This document shows positions 25,276 through 31,472 of a stretch of DNA of 64,000 bases, piece after piece. The translations under genes and the position numbers were made by a program. The notes under the pieces were generated by a model. That model was not told the origin of the DNA and made no database searches. It was given only the letters and a program-made list of their open reading frames with translations. How positions within the stretch are numbered: position 1 is the stretch's first letter; the number at the start of each line of letters is the position of its first letter. Source of the stretch: Methylocapsa acidiphila B2 (GTDB lineage Bacteria > Pseudomonadota > Alphaproteobacteria > Rhizobiales > Beijerinckiaceae); contig NZ_KE386496.1 in NCBI RefSeq assembly GCF_000427445.1, positions 2,088,506-2,152,505 on the forward strand, read 5' to 3'.

Positions 25276-26232
25276 CTACAGACTCCGGGAGACGAAGAGA
25301 AGCAGCGTCCCGAGCAGGCCCAGCATCAAAGCCGCGCCGAGAAAGTCGGAGACCCGGAAGACGCGCATCTTGGCGATCGACGTCTCGAACCAGGCGAGGA
25401 AAAGGCCGCCGACCGCGAGCTTGCCGATATAGGCGCCTACGCCCGCAAGCTGCGCGGCAGGTCCCGCTCCGGGCTGAGCCTGTCCCCAGGGCAGGAACAC
25501 GCAAGCGATGAGCGAGAGGTAAAGCAAGAGCTTCAATGAGGCCGCAAGCTCGATGACCGCAAGATGGCGGCCGGAATATTCGAGCAGCATCGCCTCATGG
25601 ACCATGGTGAGTTCGAGATGGGTCGCCGGATTATCGATGGGGATGCGGCCGTTCTCGGCGATCGCGACCATCACCAGCGCCACCAGCGCCAAGCCGAGCG
25701 AGACCCTGAGGCCAACGGCCGGCGACAACATGAAGGCCGCGACCTGCGAGAGTTGGGTCGAGCCGGCGAGAAGCGCAAGGGTGAAGACGATCATGATGGT
25801 CGCGGGCTCGGCGAGCGTGGCGATCATCATCTCGCGGCTCGATCCTAGGCCGCCGAAGCTCGTGCCGACGTCCATCCCGGCGAGAGCCAGAAAGAAGCGC
25901 GCGCTGCCGAGCAAAGCGATGATTGCAATGAGATCGGCCGACCAATTGAACATGAGGCCCGCGGCGAAGGTCGGGACGAGCGAGGCCGCGACCCAGGTCG
26001 CGGCGAAGATCAGATAGGGAATAACGCGAAAGAGCCAGGACGACTCTTCGGCGAGGACCGTCTCCTTGCGCGAGAGGCGGAGAAGGTCGCGATAAGGCTG
26101 CAGCAGCGACGGGCCGCGCCGCCGCTGAAGGCGGGCCTTCGCCTTGCGCACGAAGCCGGTGAGGAGCGGGGCGAGCAAAAGCACCAGCAGCATTTGCGCG
26201 TTCTGGACGACGAGGTCGAGGATCACGGCCAT
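25276..26232 (-). CDS. Ehr complex membrane subunit HyfC-like (NuoH family)
   Basis: The 318-residue protein is a NuoH/HycD/HyfC homologue that forms the quinone-side membrane anchor. The conserved RRGPSLLQPYRDLLRLSRKE is visible near residue 38-57. The acidic loop ENGRIPIDNPATHLELTMVHEAML, with the charged E-x-G-R-x-P-x-D pattern, occurs around 200. Eight hydrophobic segments can be traced. It overlaps hyfB by ten bases. Confidence 0.91.
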   Translation of the reverse strand: MAVILDLVVQNAQMLLVLLLAPLLTGFVRKAKARLQRRRGPSLLQPYRDLLRLSRKETVLAEESSWLFRVIPYLIFAATWVAASLVPTFAAGLMFNWSADLIAIIALLGSARFFLALAGMDVGTSFGGLGSSREMMIATLAEPATIMIVFTLALLAGSTQLSQVAAFMLSPAVGLRVSLGLALVALVMVAIAENGRIPIDNPATHLELTMVHEAMLLEYSGRHLAVIELAASLKLLLYLSLIACVFLPWGQAQPGAGPAAQLAGVGAYIGKLAVGGLFLAWFETSIAKMRVFRVSDFLGAALMLGLLGTLLLFVSRSL

Positions 26233-28232
26233 ACCGCCAGCGCCAGAAGGAGGAACACGAGAGAGAAGAAGACCAAGCTCAGATAGATCCGGATGGTCAG
26301 ATACTGAATCCGGTTGAGCCGCTCCGCCACAAAGGACACGGCTAGCGCGATCGGCGCATAGATGAGCTCCCAGGCGAGATCATGCAGCGTCACGTCGATG
26401 CGCGCCGGGCGTGTCTCTCCGGGCGCCGGCATGTCGATGCGCTCAGACGCCCGGAAAACGAATGTTCCGAAGACGCGGCGAATGGGCTGGGCGAAGCCCT
26501 CCGCCGAATATTGCGTCAGCGGGCTCGCGTCGGGATACCCGCAGTCCCAGGCCGGCGCGCGCCGCAAGGCGCGGGAGGCGAAGCGATGAATGACATAGGC
26601 GGCGAGCGACGCCGACATGGCGATGAAAGCAAAAACCAAAAGCCCGTTATAGGAGCTGCGGCTCTCCGCGATCGGCGCGATCGAGAGCCAGGGAAGGCTC
26701 GCCTGGGCCGGCATGCGCGCGCCGACAAGCGCCTGCGCGACCGGCGCCAGCCCGTCGATGACGAGCCCGGGCAAAACCCCTGCGATCACACAGAGGGCGG
26801 CGAGAGACGCCATTGCGGCGAGAGACCATTGGTCGACCTCTTCGGCGCCTTTCGCCGCGGCGAAGCGCGGCCTGCCGAGGAAGACGATCCCATAGACGCG
26901 GACGAAACAAGCTGCCGCCAGAGCCGCCGACAGAGCGAGCAAGGCGCCGACCGCCGGCACGAGGAGCTTTAATCCCCATTGCGGAAGTTGCGGGCTGAGC
27001 AAGATAGCCTGGAAGGCAAGCCATTCCGAGGCGAAGCCGTTCAGCGGCGGCAAAGCCGAAATCGCCATGCAGCCGATCAAGAAGACGAAGCTCGTGACCG
27101 GCATGCGGCGAATGAGGCCGCCAAGGCGATCCATTTCGCGCTCCCCCGTCGCGACGAGCACGGCGCCCGCGCCGAAGAACAACAGACTTTTGAAAAAGGC
27201 GTGGTTGAGGACATGGAAAAGCGCCGCGGTCAGCGCCAGCGCGGCGGCCGTGCGAAATCCATTGGCCTCGAAGGCCAGCGCCAGGCCGAGCCCGACGAAG
27301 ATCAGCCCGATATTCTCGATCGTGCTATAGGCCAGAACGCGCTTGAGGTCGGTTTGCATCATCGCATAGAGCACGCCGAGAACGGCGGAGCCGCCGCCAA
27401 TGGCGAGGATCGGGAGGCCCTGCCACCATTGCGGCGGCCCGAGCAGGTCGAACACGATGCGAATGAAGCCGTACACGGCCACTTTGGTCATGACGCCGCT
27501 CATCAACGCTGAGACATGGCTGGGCGCCGCCGGATGGGCGAGCGGTAGCCAGACATGCAAGGGAACGAGGCCGGCCTTCGACCCTGCGCCGGCCAAAGCG
27601 AGAGCGAGGATGAATCCGGCGCGTAAAGGAGACGCCTGATGCGCGCGGATCGCCGCAAAGGCATAGTCGCCTTGCGGGCCGGCGAGCAGGCCGAAGGCGA
27701 GGAGCAAGGCCAGCGTGCCGAAACTCGCCATCACGATATAGACATAGCCCGCCCGCGCGACGCCTTCCTCGCGATGATGCGCCATGACCAGCGCCCAGGA
27801 CGACAAGGACATGAATTCCCAGGCGAACAGAAAGCTGAAAGCGTCGCCCGCCAGCACGACGAGATTCATGCCGGCGAGAAAGGCCGGAACGAAAGGCGTC
27901 GAGCGCTGAGGCTCGGCCTCGTGGCGCGCATAGCCGATCGCGTAGAGGCAGGCGGCGGCGCCACCGAGGTTGACGACGGCTAGGAAGAATGCCGTGAGCG
28001 CGTCGACGCGGAAATGCGCGCCGATCCAGGGAAGGCCCAGAGGCAAGACGATCTCCGATTCCGGCGCGCCGGAGATCAGGTGGATGAGCGCGGCGAGAAG
28101 CCCAACGAAGGAAATCAGGAAGCAGGCGCCATAAACGGCAGCTGACGAGTTCTGCGCCCGTCCATTCAGAAGAGCGAAGACCGCGACAGCCATCAGGACG
28201 CAGACCCAGGCTAGGCCGAACCAGGCCGACAT
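26223..28232 (-). CDS. Ehr complex membrane subunit HyfB-like (NuoL/MrpA family)
   Basis: The 669-residue polytopic protein is the first gene of the cluster and a NuoL/HyfB-type antiporter-like subunit. It shows WEFMSLSSWALVMAHHREEG with the conserved TM5 Glu, KAGLVPLHVWLPLAHPAAPS with the Lys, the stretch LAYSTIENIGLIFVGLGLAL, and LNHAFFKSLLFFGAGAVL. The C-terminal region (WDCGYPDASPLTQYSAEGFAQPIRR) is the typical HyfB/HycC tail. With hyfF it gives two ion-translocating antiporter-like modules. The gene is divergent from pmoC, with a 559-base gap. Confidence 0.91.
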   Translation of the reverse strand: MSAWFGLAWVCVLMAVAVFALLNGRAQNSSAAVYGACFLISFVGLLAALIHLISGAPESEIVLPLGLPWIGAHFRVDALTAFFLAVVNLGGAAACLYAIGYARHEAEPQRSTPFVPAFLAGMNLVVLAGDAFSFLFAWEFMSLSSWALVMAHHREEGVARAGYVYIVMASFGTLALLLAFGLLAGPQGDYAFAAIRAHQASPLRAGFILALALAGAGSKAGLVPLHVWLPLAHPAAPSHVSALMSGVMTKVAVYGFIRIVFDLLGPPQWWQGLPILAIGGGSAVLGVLYAMMQTDLKRVLAYSTIENIGLIFVGLGLALAFEANGFRTAAALALTAALFHVLNHAFFKSLLFFGAGAVLVATGEREMDRLGGLIRRMPVTSFVFLIGCMAISALPPLNGFASEWLAFQAILLSPQLPQWGLKLLVPAVGALLALSAALAAACFVRVYGIVFLGRPRFAAAKGAEEVDQWSLAAMASLAALCVIAGVLPGLVIDGLAPVAQALVGARMPAQASLPWLSIAPIAESRSSYNGLLVFAFIAMSASLAAYVIHRFASRALRRAPAWDCGYPDASPLTQYSAEGFAQPIRRVFGTFVFRASERIDMPAPGETRPARIDVTLHDLAWELIYAPIALAVSFVAERLNRIQYLTIRIYLSLVFFSLVFLLLALAVWP

Positions 28233-28791
28233 TCAGTCACCTTTCCGCAGCGCGTCGATCCGCGATTCGCCGCGCCTTGTGCGAAGCTCTCTCCCCGTCG
28301 GCTGCGTCGATGGAAGTCGTCTGCGCACAATGTCGCGATTCGGTCTCTCTTGGTTTGAGCGATTTTGAATCATGGAGCCTGCGGGCGCTTTTGTCCAGAT
28401 TTCGCGTCGCCTACAGGCAAAGCTTCGACTCTAGCCGCCGCCTCGCAATCGCACGAGCCGCGCCGGCGACATTGTCCGTCAAGTCATTCGCGACATAGGC
28501 CAGCGCTCGGTTCCCTCGCGACGCGCAAATGTGCAGCTCCGATCGCGGGCGTTTCAATCTCGAGCAGGCAGCAGGTCAGAGACATGAGACCGCTCCACGT
28601 CAAGAGAATGCGCTCGAACGGCATTTTCATCGCCGATGTATATGGCATAAACGTCCTCTATGTGACGATAAAAACATACAATTTTATTCGCCTTTTTGAC
28701 TCATGTAAATTCTGTAGACGCCAACGGAGCGTGAGACGGTGTGTCGCGCCCGACGTCGGCGAGCGGTCATAGAGCAAAAGAGGCATATGAC
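28233..28791. other. Intergenic region between the Ehr operon and pmoC, 559 bases
   Basis: This long divergent spacer should contain the promoters of both the Ehr operon (minus) and pmoC (plus). It becomes noticeably AT-rich from about 28650 (for example ACATACAATTTTATTCGCC), ending near 28720. A TTGACT at 28696 could be a -35 box, but I do not see a convincing -10 at the right distance. No open frame looks coding. Confidence 0.5.
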
Positions 28792-29589
28792 ATGAGCTTG
28801 ATAACTGAAACAACACCCGGCCGCGCAGATGCCGCAGCGGTCTCCGCTGCAGCCCCGGTTTGGGACCCAAAGCCTTTTATCCTCGGCACTGCCGTGATAG
28901 TCGCTTTCTACATCGGCGTTCGCATTTATGAGCAAGTCTTCGGCTGGTACGCCGGTCTCGACTCGTTCTCGCCGGAATTCCAGAAATACTGGATGACCAT
29001 CCTGTACATCGAAGAGCCGACCGAGCTCATCGCCTTCCTTGGGCTCATCGGCTATCTTTGGAAGACGCGTCCGAATGACCTCGACACGGTCGCCCCGCGC
29101 GAAGAGCTCCGCCGCATCTTCTATCTGTTTAACTGGATCTTCGTGTATGGCGTCGCCATTTACTGGGGCGCCAGCTACTTCACCGAGCAGGACGGCACCT
29201 GGCACCAGACGGTTATTCGCGACACCGACTTCACGCCGAGCCACATAATCGAATTCTACATGAGCTATCCGATCTACATCATCATGGGCGTAGGCGGATT
29301 CGTGTACGCTCGGACGAGGCTCCCGACCTTCGGCTCGAAGGGCTACTCTGTCGCCTATCTGCTTCTGTTCGTCGGCCCGTTCATGATCTTCCCGAACGTT
29401 GCGCTCAATGAGTGGGGCCACACGTTCTGGTTCATGGAAGAGCTGTTCGTCGCTCCGCTGCACTGGATGTTCGTGTTCTTCGGCTGGTTCATGCTTTCTG
29501 TGTTCGGCGTTTCACTGCAGATCCTCGGCCGGATCAAGGAACTCTGCACGGGCTACGAAGACGTCGTCGGCCTGGAGCCGGCGAAATAA
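28792..29589 (+). CDS. pmoC: Particulate methane monooxygenase subunit C (orphan copy)
   Basis: PmoC is the membrane subunit of pMMO that holds copper near the methane-oxidising site. The 265-residue protein has about six membrane segments and family hallmarks such as WYAGLDSFSPEFQKYWM and EEPTELIAFLGLIGYLW. All metal ligands are conserved. D134, H138 and H151 (DGTWH...TPSH) are the CuC-type ligands; N206, H210 and H224 (NEWGH...PLH) are the second set. The start at 28792 is set by AGAGG eight bases upstream and by alignment length (256-residue relatives). No pmoA or pmoB follows; the next gene encodes a PmoD-like protein. Type II methanotrophs are known to carry extra orphan pmoC copies. Confidence 0.97.
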   Translation: MSLITETTPGRADAAAVSAAAPVWDPKPFILGTAVIVAFYIGVRIYEQVFGWYAGLDSFSPEFQKYWMTILYIEEPTELIAFLGLIGYLWKTRPNDLDTVAPREELRRIFYLFNWIFVYGVAIYWGASYFTEQDGTWHQTVIRDTDFTPSHIIEFYMSYPIYIIMGVGGFVYARTRLPTFGSKGYSVAYLLLFVGPFMIFPNVALNEWGHTFWFMEELFVAPLHWMFVFFGWFMLSVFGVSLQILGRIKELCTGYEDVVGLEPAK

Positions 29590-29822
29590 CGTTTCTTGGC
29601 GCGTAGGGATCTAATTCGTTCCGTCTATGCCGGATCGCGATCACGGTCGTTCGTAGAGTCCGTTTGCTTTGGCGAACAACCGCTCCGGTCCAAGCCGTCT
29701 AAATTCTGGGGACTTAAGATCAACTGAAATGCGCTCCGTTAGTCCGGCGCCGGCGGTCCGGAACATATGTCCGGTGGAGCTAAGTCGAGACAGCAGTCAC
29801 TTCAGCGATTAAAAGCGCGATG

Positions 29823-29855
29823 TCCCTCGCCGGAGCCTTGGGCGCCGGCGAGGGA
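29823..29855 (+). other. Strong hairpin between pmoC and the PmoD-like gene
   Basis: An 11-bp perfect stem (TCCCTCGCCGG / CCGGCGAGGGA) encloses an 11-base loop and ends 25 bases before the next start codon. No T-run follows, so it is not a classic terminator. It may protect or mark a processed 3' end of the pmoC transcript, as hairpins between pmo genes can do. Confidence 0.6.
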
Positions 29856-29879
29856 TTGAACTAAGAGAGGGGTTGACCA

Positions 29880-30497
29880 ATGTTCATTCGAATCGCAGCA
29901 GCCGGTCTCATCTCAACGGGCCTGACGGTCTCGGTTGCGCACGCCCACAGGGCGAGCGTGAACAGGGACATATGCATGCTGGGAATCGGCCAGGATGCGA
30001 TGCAGGTCACCGCCTATCAGCCGCAAGATGGCGACGCAAAACTTTGCAGGGACGTTCCTGAGGTTGGGCCAGCGATCATCGTCCTCGATTATGTCGATTC
30101 CGAGCTGCGCGGCATGACGACGGATATCCGCATTGTCCGGGTGTCCGACGACTTAGGCGGCGCATCGGAGCTCACTCAAATGCTGAACGATGCGAAAGTT
30201 GCGCCTGAAGCGCTTGATCCCGTCACAGAGAAACATATACAGGCGCAGCGCTACCCGAGCGGGACGATTAATTTCGAGCATGTCTTCACCAGCCCGGGCA
30301 AATATCACGGGATCGTGACCGTCAAAAACACGCATGGTCAAACTTACGTTTCGGATTTCCCATTGTCGGTTGGGCGGGCGCGGGAAGGAGCGTTATGGGG
30401 TTACGGCTCCGCCGTGACCGCCGTTGTCGCAGGCGTCTTCATCTATTGCATGCACGCGCGCGGACGCCGAACTGGCCCGTCGGGCAAGCCGACATGA
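29880..30497 (+). CDS. PmoD-like periplasmic copper-protein candidate with C-terminal membrane anchor
   Basis: The 205-residue protein has a signal peptide ending AHA (residues 20-22), so the mature protein probably begins with His23. A domain of about 150 residues follows, and then one C-terminal helix (YGSAVTAVVAGVFIYCMHARG). Near the mature N-terminus are C32-M33 (RDICMLGIGQDAM), M41 and C56 (KLCRDVPEVG). This pattern and the overall plan resemble PmoD, which forms a CuA-like copper site and is encoded with pmo genes. Position 290 bases after pmoC supports this. A ribosome site (GAGAGG) precedes the ATG. Assignment rests on motif layout and context, not on a search. Confidence 0.65.
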   Translation: MFIRIAAAGLISTGLTVSVAHAHRASVNRDICMLGIGQDAMQVTAYQPQDGDAKLCRDVPEVGPAIIVLDYVDSELRGMTTDIRIVRVSDDLGGASELTQMLNDAKVAPEALDPVTEKHIQAQRYPSGTINFEHVFTSPGKYHGIVTVKNTHGQTYVSDFPLSVGRAREGALWGYGSAVTAVVAGVFIYCMHARGRRTGPSGKPT

Positions 30498-30587
30498 GCT
30501 CAACACTGTTCGGCCACGAACGGTCAATGTTGGAGAAGCTTTGAGCCAAGCCGGTCAAATTGTAGAAAAGGCCATTGCTCCAATCGC

Positions 30588-30606
30588 ATAAATCAATATC
30601 ATTTAT
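30588..30606 (+). promoter_or_regulatory. Palindromic operator candidate at the lysR start codon
   Basis: ATAAAT-N7-ATTTAT is a perfect 6-bp inverted repeat that ends two bases before the ATG of the LysR gene. LysR-type proteins often bind AT-rich interrupted palindromes near their own promoter. Its position would let the protein block its own transcription or translation. There is no visible Shine-Dalgarno in the same stretch. Confidence 0.5.
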
Positions 30607-30608
30607 TA

Positions 30609-31472
30609 ATGGAACTCTACCAGATCAGGCACTTCGTCGCTGTCGTCGAGACTGGCAGTTTCACGAAAGGCGCTCAGCGCGAAGCGGTCTCGCAACCTGC
30701 GATCTCTGTCAGCATCGCAAAACTCGAAGCCGAACTCGAGGTGAAGCTGCTCGAAAGGCGGCGTTCTTCTGTCGTCGCAACTCCGGCCGGCATGCGGCTG
30801 TTCGATGCCGGCAAGGCAATGCTCCGACTGGGCAATGCAGTCAAAGCCGAATTGAAGGCGCTGGACAAACCGAATCTTCTGAAAATTGGCGTTTTGCGCT
30901 CATTTTCGAGCCAGCGGGTCTCCAGGCTGCTGACTTCCTTCAAGCGGACCAGTGCTCCTATGGCGATCGAGGTCTTCGATAGCTCGAACGAGCATTTGAT
31001 AGAATTACTCGCTGAAAAGAAGCTCGATGCGATTTTCACAATTCTGGATGGGCGCATCGAGAGTTTCGCCAGTCGCGTTCTCTTCAGCGAGCCGTATTTC
31101 TTGGCGGTTCCGGACGAGCATCGCCTCGCGCAACAGCAAGTCATCCGGGTCTCCGATCTCGACAATGAGCCTTTCATCACGCGGACCGGCTTCGATACGT
31201 TCCAAGATGGAATCACTGCGCTCGCTGCGCGCGGCGTTCGCATACGCGTGGTGTATCAGACCGATGAATTTGACAGGACCCTGGCTCTCGTCGCCGCTCG
31301 AATTGGCCTCGCGCTGGTCCCAGGAAACTTCGAAATGCCGGCCGTAAAGTTCCTGCCGGTATCGGATTTGGACATGGTCAGAAAATACGGTCTTCTCTGG
31401 CGGCCCGAACACAAGGGCCGCGACGTCGAGAAATTCTTCGAATTCGCAAAGGCCCACGCCTGGTCGAAATAG
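30609..31472 (+). CDS. LysR family transcriptional regulator
   Basis: The 287-residue protein starts with the LysR winged helix-turn-helix (ELYQIRHFVAVVETGSFTKGAQREAVSQPAISVSIAKLE, residues 2-40, read as separate motifs). It ends with a periplasmic-binding-like effector domain from about residue 90 (LLKIGVLRSFSSQRVSRLL). The effector is unknown. Its place 111 bases after the PmoD-like gene, on the same strand, makes control of the pmoC cassette plausible. An AT-rich palindrome abuts its start codon. Confidence 0.93.
   Translation: MELYQIRHFVAVVETGSFTKGAQREAVSQPAISVSIAKLEAELEVKLLERRRSSVVATPAGMRLFDAGKAMLRLGNAVKAELKALDKPNLLKIGVLRSFSSQRVSRLLTSFKRTSAPMAIEVFDSSNEHLIELLAEKKLDAIFTILDGRIESFASRVLFSEPYFLAVPDEHRLAQQQVIRVSDLDNEPFITRTGFDTFQDGITALAARGVRIRVVYQTDEFDRTLALVAARIGLALVPGNFEMPAVKFLPVSDLDMVRKYGLLWRPEHKGRDVEKFFEFAKAHAWSK

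Follow-up and report, generated by a model that had tools for sequence, protein, structure and literature searches.

An orphan pmoC gene of Methylocapsa acidiphila B2 forms a conserved unit with pmoD-like and LysR-type regulator genes and a candidate binding element

We analyzed a stretch of 64,000 nucleotides from the genome of Methylocapsa acidiphila B2 (the window), and within it a cassette in which an orphan pmoC gene, located away from the pmoCAB operon of the particulate methane monooxygenase (pMMO), is followed by a gene for a PmoD homologue and by one for a LysR-type regulator. Judged from its sequence, this cassette is a genuine, conserved unit that joins familiar parts to a candidate binding element, an arrangement that was not found in the literature searched. 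The unit is recognized by its three genes, the intact metal ligands of PmoC, a tract identical to the operon pmoC, the conserved element, and the co-occurrence of this element with one clade of LysR regulators. We consider it probable that the locus provides a LysR-activated extra supply of an interchangeable PmoC, together with PmoD, for the same pMMO.

The product of the window pmoC matched PF04896 (E=1e-104, 349.7 bits) and two NCBIfam equivalogs above their cut-offs, and its alignment contains D134, H138, H151, N206, H210 and H224, residues that act as metal ligands in PmoC. The three genes lie on the forward strand, with intergenic gaps of 290 and 111 bp. The host genome (G000; 4.10 Mb, two contigs) harbors four pmoC genes, six PmoD-like genes and a single pmoA match, which is within the pmoCAB operon, 1.77 Mb from the window pmoC; no PmoB match was detected within the window. 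These results agree with a preliminary description of this DNA, which had proposed an orphan pmoC with six ligands and neither pmoA nor pmoB nearby, a PmoD-like second gene and a LysR gene on the same strand, and had advised a search for the complete operon elsewhere in the genome; the PmoD homologue matched the protein deposited as 'PmoD' in PDB 6cpd (phmmer, E=1e-15, residues 30-165) and the regulator contains the HTH_1 and LysR_substrate domains. The description was also right in that the guanine plus cytosine (GC) content of the cassette (28600-31472), 56.0%, is below that of the window (63.7%), but the low value is partly a property of the pmoC gene, because the operon pmoC alone has 57.0% GC. 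For the same reason we rejected low GC as a mark of recent import.

The regulator belongs to a clade that recurs beside orphan pmoC genes. When 15 genus genomes were scored against the clade profile A2, whole genes reached at least 475 bits and all other matches at E<=1e-30, including the pieces of one broken gene, at most 180 bits. The genus relatives include Methylocapsa aurea KYG (G001), M. palsarum NE2 (G002) and the metagenome-assembled genomes (MAGs) USCa_AHI (G008), a Methylocapsa MAG (G009) and MO3_YZ.1 (G010). A clade LysR gene was found within about 1.3 kb of 9 of the 13 readable orphan pmoC genes of the genus (the window, L035, L042, L045, L046, L048, L051, L053 and L058/L162), its strand relative to pmoC being variable, and beside none of seven pmoCAB operons (L037, L043, L047, L050, L052, L061 and L062, the last of which, from G001, starts at a contig edge inside pmoC, its upstream side being outside the data). 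This count omits pmoC pieces at contig ends in G005 and a pmoC on contig C16 of G001 that is cut by the contig end and has the element. The preliminary description had named the Methylocystaceae as the group in which to search for pmoC-pmoD-lysR neighbourhoods; the genome belongs instead to the Methylocapsa/upland soil cluster alpha (USC-alpha) group, where the LysR part of the neighbourhood recurred and the PmoD part did so only in some loci, as detailed below. We also compared 80 named pmoC loci, the 80 best of 274 confirmed ones (flanks of up to 5 kb, some shorter); a LysR gene (at least 60 bits) was present at 4 of them, all Methylocapsa-like orphans. At E<=1e-45 the clade was detected in 11 of 397 family genomes, themselves a sample of a larger group: nine from the genus and two with distant members at ~310 bits. 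Among 396 other genomes of the order, the sole match at E<=1e-60 was a LysR of 313 bits in G560, from another family. A tree of these regulators that included G560 and a far LysR left its root unresolved between a DUF485-symporter and a pmoC target, with one very long outgroup branch.

The sequence ahead of the orphan pmoC genes does not clearly resemble that preceding the operons; the orphan genes nevertheless have in common an element of ~85 bp. A 9-mer within it, AAACGATTT, lies 97-128 bp ahead of the start codon and is exact in 8 of 10 sequences, with one change in another (G010b). We derived a sequence-only model (R1), whose E-values are rough, from an alignment of ten sites (A3) anchored by eye on this 9-mer. 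At E<=0.001, R1 identified 19 sites in 12 of the 397 family genomes, 12 of them before pmoC (the ten training sites, another pmoC of G001 and the operon of G009); the others precede the orphan pmoD of G010, a carbonic anhydrase gene (G011), a DUF938-SDR-LysR run (G006), genes resembling linalool dehydratase/isomerase (Ldi; G005 and G006) and DUF485 genes transcribed divergently from the distant LysR gene (G246 and G086). The element is present in all 11 genomes that carry the LysR clade and in one other (G009), and 385 of the 397 have neither. After leaving out the seven training genomes, it was found in 4 of 4 LysR genomes vs 1 of 386 others (Fisher p=5e-9, uncorrected for kinship). Non-training sites beside a LysR gene are those of G246, G086, G006 (the DUF938-SDR-LysR run), the G010 pmoD and the G560 pmoC. 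The host genome has only two R1 sites at this threshold, both ahead of LysR-linked pmoC genes, and none that is significant before its pmoD, LysR or operon genes; between the window pmoD and lysR, at 30582, there is a weak match (11.2 vs 49.9 at the pmoC site).

In a leave-one-out test over 613 kb, in which one site was removed per round and sites from close relatives stayed in, 9 of the 10 sites were outscored by 0 to 6 non-training positions. These were confined to six places, each before a gene and each found by R1: L197, L198 and L199, included in the test set as R1 matches, and L161, L203 and L204, included for their LysR. The window site, once left out, was outscored by only three non-training positions, all of them R1-found sites before other genes. 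In G560, which was picked by its LysR alone, the element lies between this gene and a divergent pmoC truncated by the contig end, with a score of 21.2; the next best score in that stretch was 0.7, and the highest non-site score among the other stretches listed was 13.3. The element contains two T-N11-A boxes 21-22 bp apart, each present in 18 of 20 sites (for the activation box, the G006 DUF938 site, anchored one base off, was scored as lacking it). Taking TAAATT as the -10 hexamer, the window boxes are centered at -64 and -43, a layout that matches the usual positions of LysR regulatory and activation sites. In this respect, and in its HTH_1 and LysR_substrate domains, the window regulator is similar to BenM, which is among its best solved relatives, and to CbnR, LysR proteins with a regulatory and an activation binding site; unlike them, its proposed target is a methane monooxygenase subunit. 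PMC3382589 sets out the two-site model and the T-N11-A motif. Together, the recurrence of the LysR clade beside orphan pmoC genes in the genus and a shared element with the form of a LysR target lend sequence support to the earlier suggestion that the cassette is regulated.

We propose that LysR, the product of the window gene and/or of a paralogue, would bind the two boxes, which are about two helical turns apart, and that its effector-bound form would activate a promoter located about 80 bp ahead of pmoC, with transcription reading on from pmoC into pmoD. The orphan PmoC, sharing its core with the operon PmoC through a putative gene conversion, would then join the PmoA and PmoB produced by the distant operon, and PmoD may assist copper loading or assembly; the unit would thereby alter how much PmoC is made, and when, and not the chemistry. 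Alternatively, the element might be the site of another factor, or merely a strong promoter, and the linkage to LysR incidental: a conserved element may bind something other than the adjoining regulator, and this one precedes several unrelated genes. This we regard as very unlikely, since every one of the LysR genomes of the family set has the element, which accompanies the LysR gene also where the target is an unrelated one, and outside the family.

Table 1. Features of the orphan pmoC cassette (positions in the window)
Feature	Position	Strand	Remarks
Conserved orphan-pmoC promoter element (model R1)	28638..28722	+	46.5 bits
Proposed LysR regulatory binding site, T-N11-A	28648..28660	+	Centre about -64; putative assignment
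Proposed LysR activation binding site, T-N11-A	28669..28681	+	Centre about -43; putative assignment
Proposed -10 hexamer TAAATT	28706..28711	+	First T and first A constant across the ten aligned sequences; transcription start putative
Orphan pmoC	28792..29589	+	ATG 28792, stop 29589; 265 aa; all six metal ligands retained
Tract without mismatch to operon pmoC; gene conversion proposed	28905..29552	+	648 bp
PmoD homologue	29880..30497	+	205 aa; two Cys kept; C-x8-M replacing C-x7-M-x-H
LysR-type regulator, orphan-pmoC clade	30609..31472	+	287 aa

The notion of an interchangeable PmoC comes from the comparison of the window pmoC with the operon copy. The two genes differ at 36 of 798 bp, all of them at positions 1-113 and 762-793; their proteins are 96% identical, residues 39-264 being the same and 10 of residues 1-38 different. 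The likeness does not extend beyond the gene: in 50-bp bins, the identity of the sequences flanking the window pmoC is 28-56% with the operon copy and 30-66% with L035, a second pmoC-PmoD-LysR trio of the host genome in which LysR is on the opposite strand. In G002, G007, G010 and G011 the orphan and operon copies also show in-gene bins of 94-100% and low flanks, with a less even identity. The PmoC copies cluster mostly by genome, with G008 among the G011 copies, and a single clade of all orphan PmoC proteins was rejected by the approximately unbiased (AU) test (p-AU 1e-71). As for the other genes, the tree partner of the window LysR is a LysR of G010 (support 95/93), its grouping with the L035 LysR being rejected (p-AU 0.003), and the window PmoD clusters with those of L035 and the G010 orphan locus (98/99); the orphan PmoDs of G007 and G011 cluster with operon PmoDs instead. 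A recent duplication of the whole cassette within the host was rejected, as the window and L035 proteins are only 52% (PmoD) and 59% (LysR) identical, yet the window pmoC shares 648 identical bases with that of the operon. The cassette thus seems to predate the species, at least in its LysR and PmoD, and its pmoC core may have been overwritten by gene conversion, under a selection that would keep the orphan PmoC interchangeable with the operon subunit, expression and not chemistry being what differs. Accordingly worded, the 'alternative PmoC' of the preliminary description is a separate pmoC copy, but with 96% identity to the operon PmoC it is hardly a different enzyme. In the Nitrosomonadales, concerted evolution has likewise made amoCAB copies within a genome more alike than orthologues (PMC6053082); unlike there, only the pmoC core looks converted here, the promoter, 5' end, pmoD and lysR being distinct. 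The differing N-terminus of the window PmoC also resembles what was described for phage PmoC, in which the centre is alike and the cytoplasmic ends diverge (PMC7674155).

The orphan PmoC could instead be a sensor or regulatory subunit outside the active pMMO. Such a role, in regulation or sensing, was proposed for pmoC2 of strain OB3b, whose transcription is about 450-fold below that of the operon pmoC (PMC3615186). For the window gene we consider it unlikely, because its product retains all the ligands and a core identical to that of the operon copy, and the host copy that has lost three ligands is the most diverged one, L036. This fourth host pmoC (L036:9449-10273; G000:C2, ~2.23 Mb) is 72% identical, with H151 changed to N, N206 to S and H210 to C, and probably encodes a PmoC-like protein unable to bind both metals.

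The window PmoD matched no Pfam or NCBIfam family, and hydrophobic ends are seen in its translation. It shares with 6cpd the homology of the cupredoxin domain and the two invariant Cys residues; unlike that protein, it is paired with LysR and does not have the CuA motif C-x7-M-x-H-xn-C, since Ala and Gln occupy the positions of Met49 and His51 and the motif reads C-x8-M. A representative of this C-x8-M-type class bound copper and did not form CuA (PMC6189053). PmoD is an optional member of the unit because it is found in only 5 of the 9 LysR-linked orphan pmoC loci and is absent from 4. It follows pmoC on the same strand in four loci (the window, L035, L042 and L046), and in G010 an inverted LysR gene separates pmoC from a pmoD preceded by a weaker element of its own (E=6e-4); this shared order, together with the element of the G010 pmoD, favors pmoC and pmoD being controlled jointly. 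Of the six host PmoD genes, those of the window and L035 stand behind an orphan pmoC. The host pmoCAB operon (L037:8323-11543) lacks a pmoD after pmoB, unlike those of six relatives (G001, G002, G007, G009, G010 and G011), and its PmoD must therefore be supplied from elsewhere, perhaps from the orphan cassettes.

The preliminary description viewed the cassette as copper-linked, which would make it a copper-responsive alternative PmoC with PmoD as a copper sensor or CuA carrier. PmoD homologues do bind copper, some pmoD genes are copper-responsive, and neighbouring lone pmoC and pmoD genes have been described (PMC6189053). Beyond the kinship to PmoD nothing sustained the copper link, and no pointer to copper as the LysR effector was found. 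We give this explanation only a slim chance: the window PmoD reads C-x7-A-x-Q where the CuA site requires C-x7-M-x-H, PmoD is missing from several LysR-linked loci, as noted above, and distant LysR relatives and the element stand before DUF485 in two genomes with no AmoC or pmoA match (G246 and G086), one of them with a monocarboxylate-type symporter.

The NCBIfam LysR models gave no hint of the effector, as none reached its cut-off for the window LysR among the matches listed (25 of 50). The gene after DUF485 in G246 encodes a sodium:solute symporter; its score for the monocarboxylic acid transporter MctC is 654, the cut-off being 670. In G086 the contig ends inside the DUF485 gene. Because the symporter adjoins the G246 LysR, a monocarboxylate effector is suggested, and a small monocarboxylate or C1/C2 metabolite is a better guess than copper. 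It is possible, though we hold this tentatively, that the clade is a dedicated transcriptional regulator of a pMMO subunit, belonging to a lineage found elsewhere beside DUF485 and a monocarboxylate-type symporter, and that through it an organic-acid or C1/C2 metabolite signal lets the methane oxidizers of the Methylocapsa/USC-alpha group adjust how much PmoC and PmoD they supply.

Several observations weigh against a LysR-activated supply of PmoC. Four of the 13 orphan pmoC genes have no adjoining LysR (L036, L044, L049 and L054), and in G009, a 77% complete MAG, the element is present and no LysR was found. The window 9-mer departs from AAACGATTT by two changes, and the G010b site, with an inserted base, failed the leave-one-out test (score 3.2). 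A generic sigma-70 scan found no forward-strand promoter at the element and, overlapping it on the reverse strand, a 10-of-12 promoter-like match (28709-28681), the region having three promoter-like matches vs 1.5 expected. The window pmoD lacks an upstream copy of the element and is separated from pmoC by the longer of the two gaps. Homogenisation is incomplete because the L035 pmoC differs from that of the operon at 79 of 798 bases, dispersed along the gene. Finally, the LysR family is not pmoC-specific because the element also precedes carbonic anhydrase, Ldi-like and DUF938 genes.

Some of the additional sites are worthy of description. Two genomes, the host (L159:7505-9055) and G011 (L161:5576-9297), have a third clade LysR gene close to one for a carbonic anhydrase; the G011 carbonic anhydrase gene has the element, and its host counterpart has a shorter frame, a different end and no significant element. 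Unexpected as members of a regulon were the Ldi-like genes with the element ahead of them (L198:1344-3146 and L197:5198-5700): the G005 copy (L198) matches Pfam Ldi, PF18566, and that of G006 (L197), cut by a contig end and without a Pfam match, is visibly similar to it in the first ~130 residues. G006 has no PmoC match and only pieces of pmoA. In G009 it is the pmoCAB operon that has the element ahead of it (L200; G009:C386:8138-8212), and control of this type may there reach the whole enzyme. The G560 genome (L208, G560:C64) has several pmoC and pmoA matches, one pmoC being divergent from the distant member of the LysR lineage. Next to the cassette, on the reverse strand at 25276-28232 and directed away from it, the window contains genes for hydrogenase-4 type membrane subunits (hyfB equivalog, 887 bits; NADHdh/NuoH-like).

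Orphan copies of this kind are familiar. From one to three orphan pmoC genes were reported in Methylocapsa-like genomes (PMC10672854), two in M. palsarum (PMC5473262) and two in MO3_YZ.1 (PMC9145241), and PmoD near a lone pmoC was already known (PMC6189053). Like M. trichosporium pmoC2, pmoC2Gs/pmoC3Ps of Methylocystis SC2, the monocistronic pmoC of M. bryophila and the lone amoC of Nitrosomonas, which are separately expressed, the window pmoC is a single gene away from the operon; unlike them, it is tied to a single LysR clade and to a common promoter element. The orphan pmoC of SC2 responds to ammonium (PMC9600857) and that of M. bryophila to oxygen (PMC12319191); PMC3615186 cites work that ties lone amoC to starvation recovery, and under O2 limitation lone amoC rose 1.9-fold without reaching significance (PMC6967387). 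No link between LysR and pmoC was found reported in the accessible parts of the literature searched, subscription papers being outside its scope.

To our knowledge, the regulation of pmo genes is poorly known. With the regulator clade and the candidate element, both this regulation and the part played by orphan pmoC genes, a puzzle of long standing, can be tested directly in cultured Methylocapsa species, and the identical tract suggests a reason for the survival of the orphan PmoC, namely that it is kept exchangeable with the operon subunit. By inference, the finding would also be relevant to uncultured atmospheric methane oxidizers, as the USCa_AHI genome has the same pmoC-LysR pair and element. 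If an organic-acid or C1/C2 signal does act on this regulator, the LysR-pmoC switch would link facultative growth with methane oxidation, which in USC-alpha is that of atmospheric methane.

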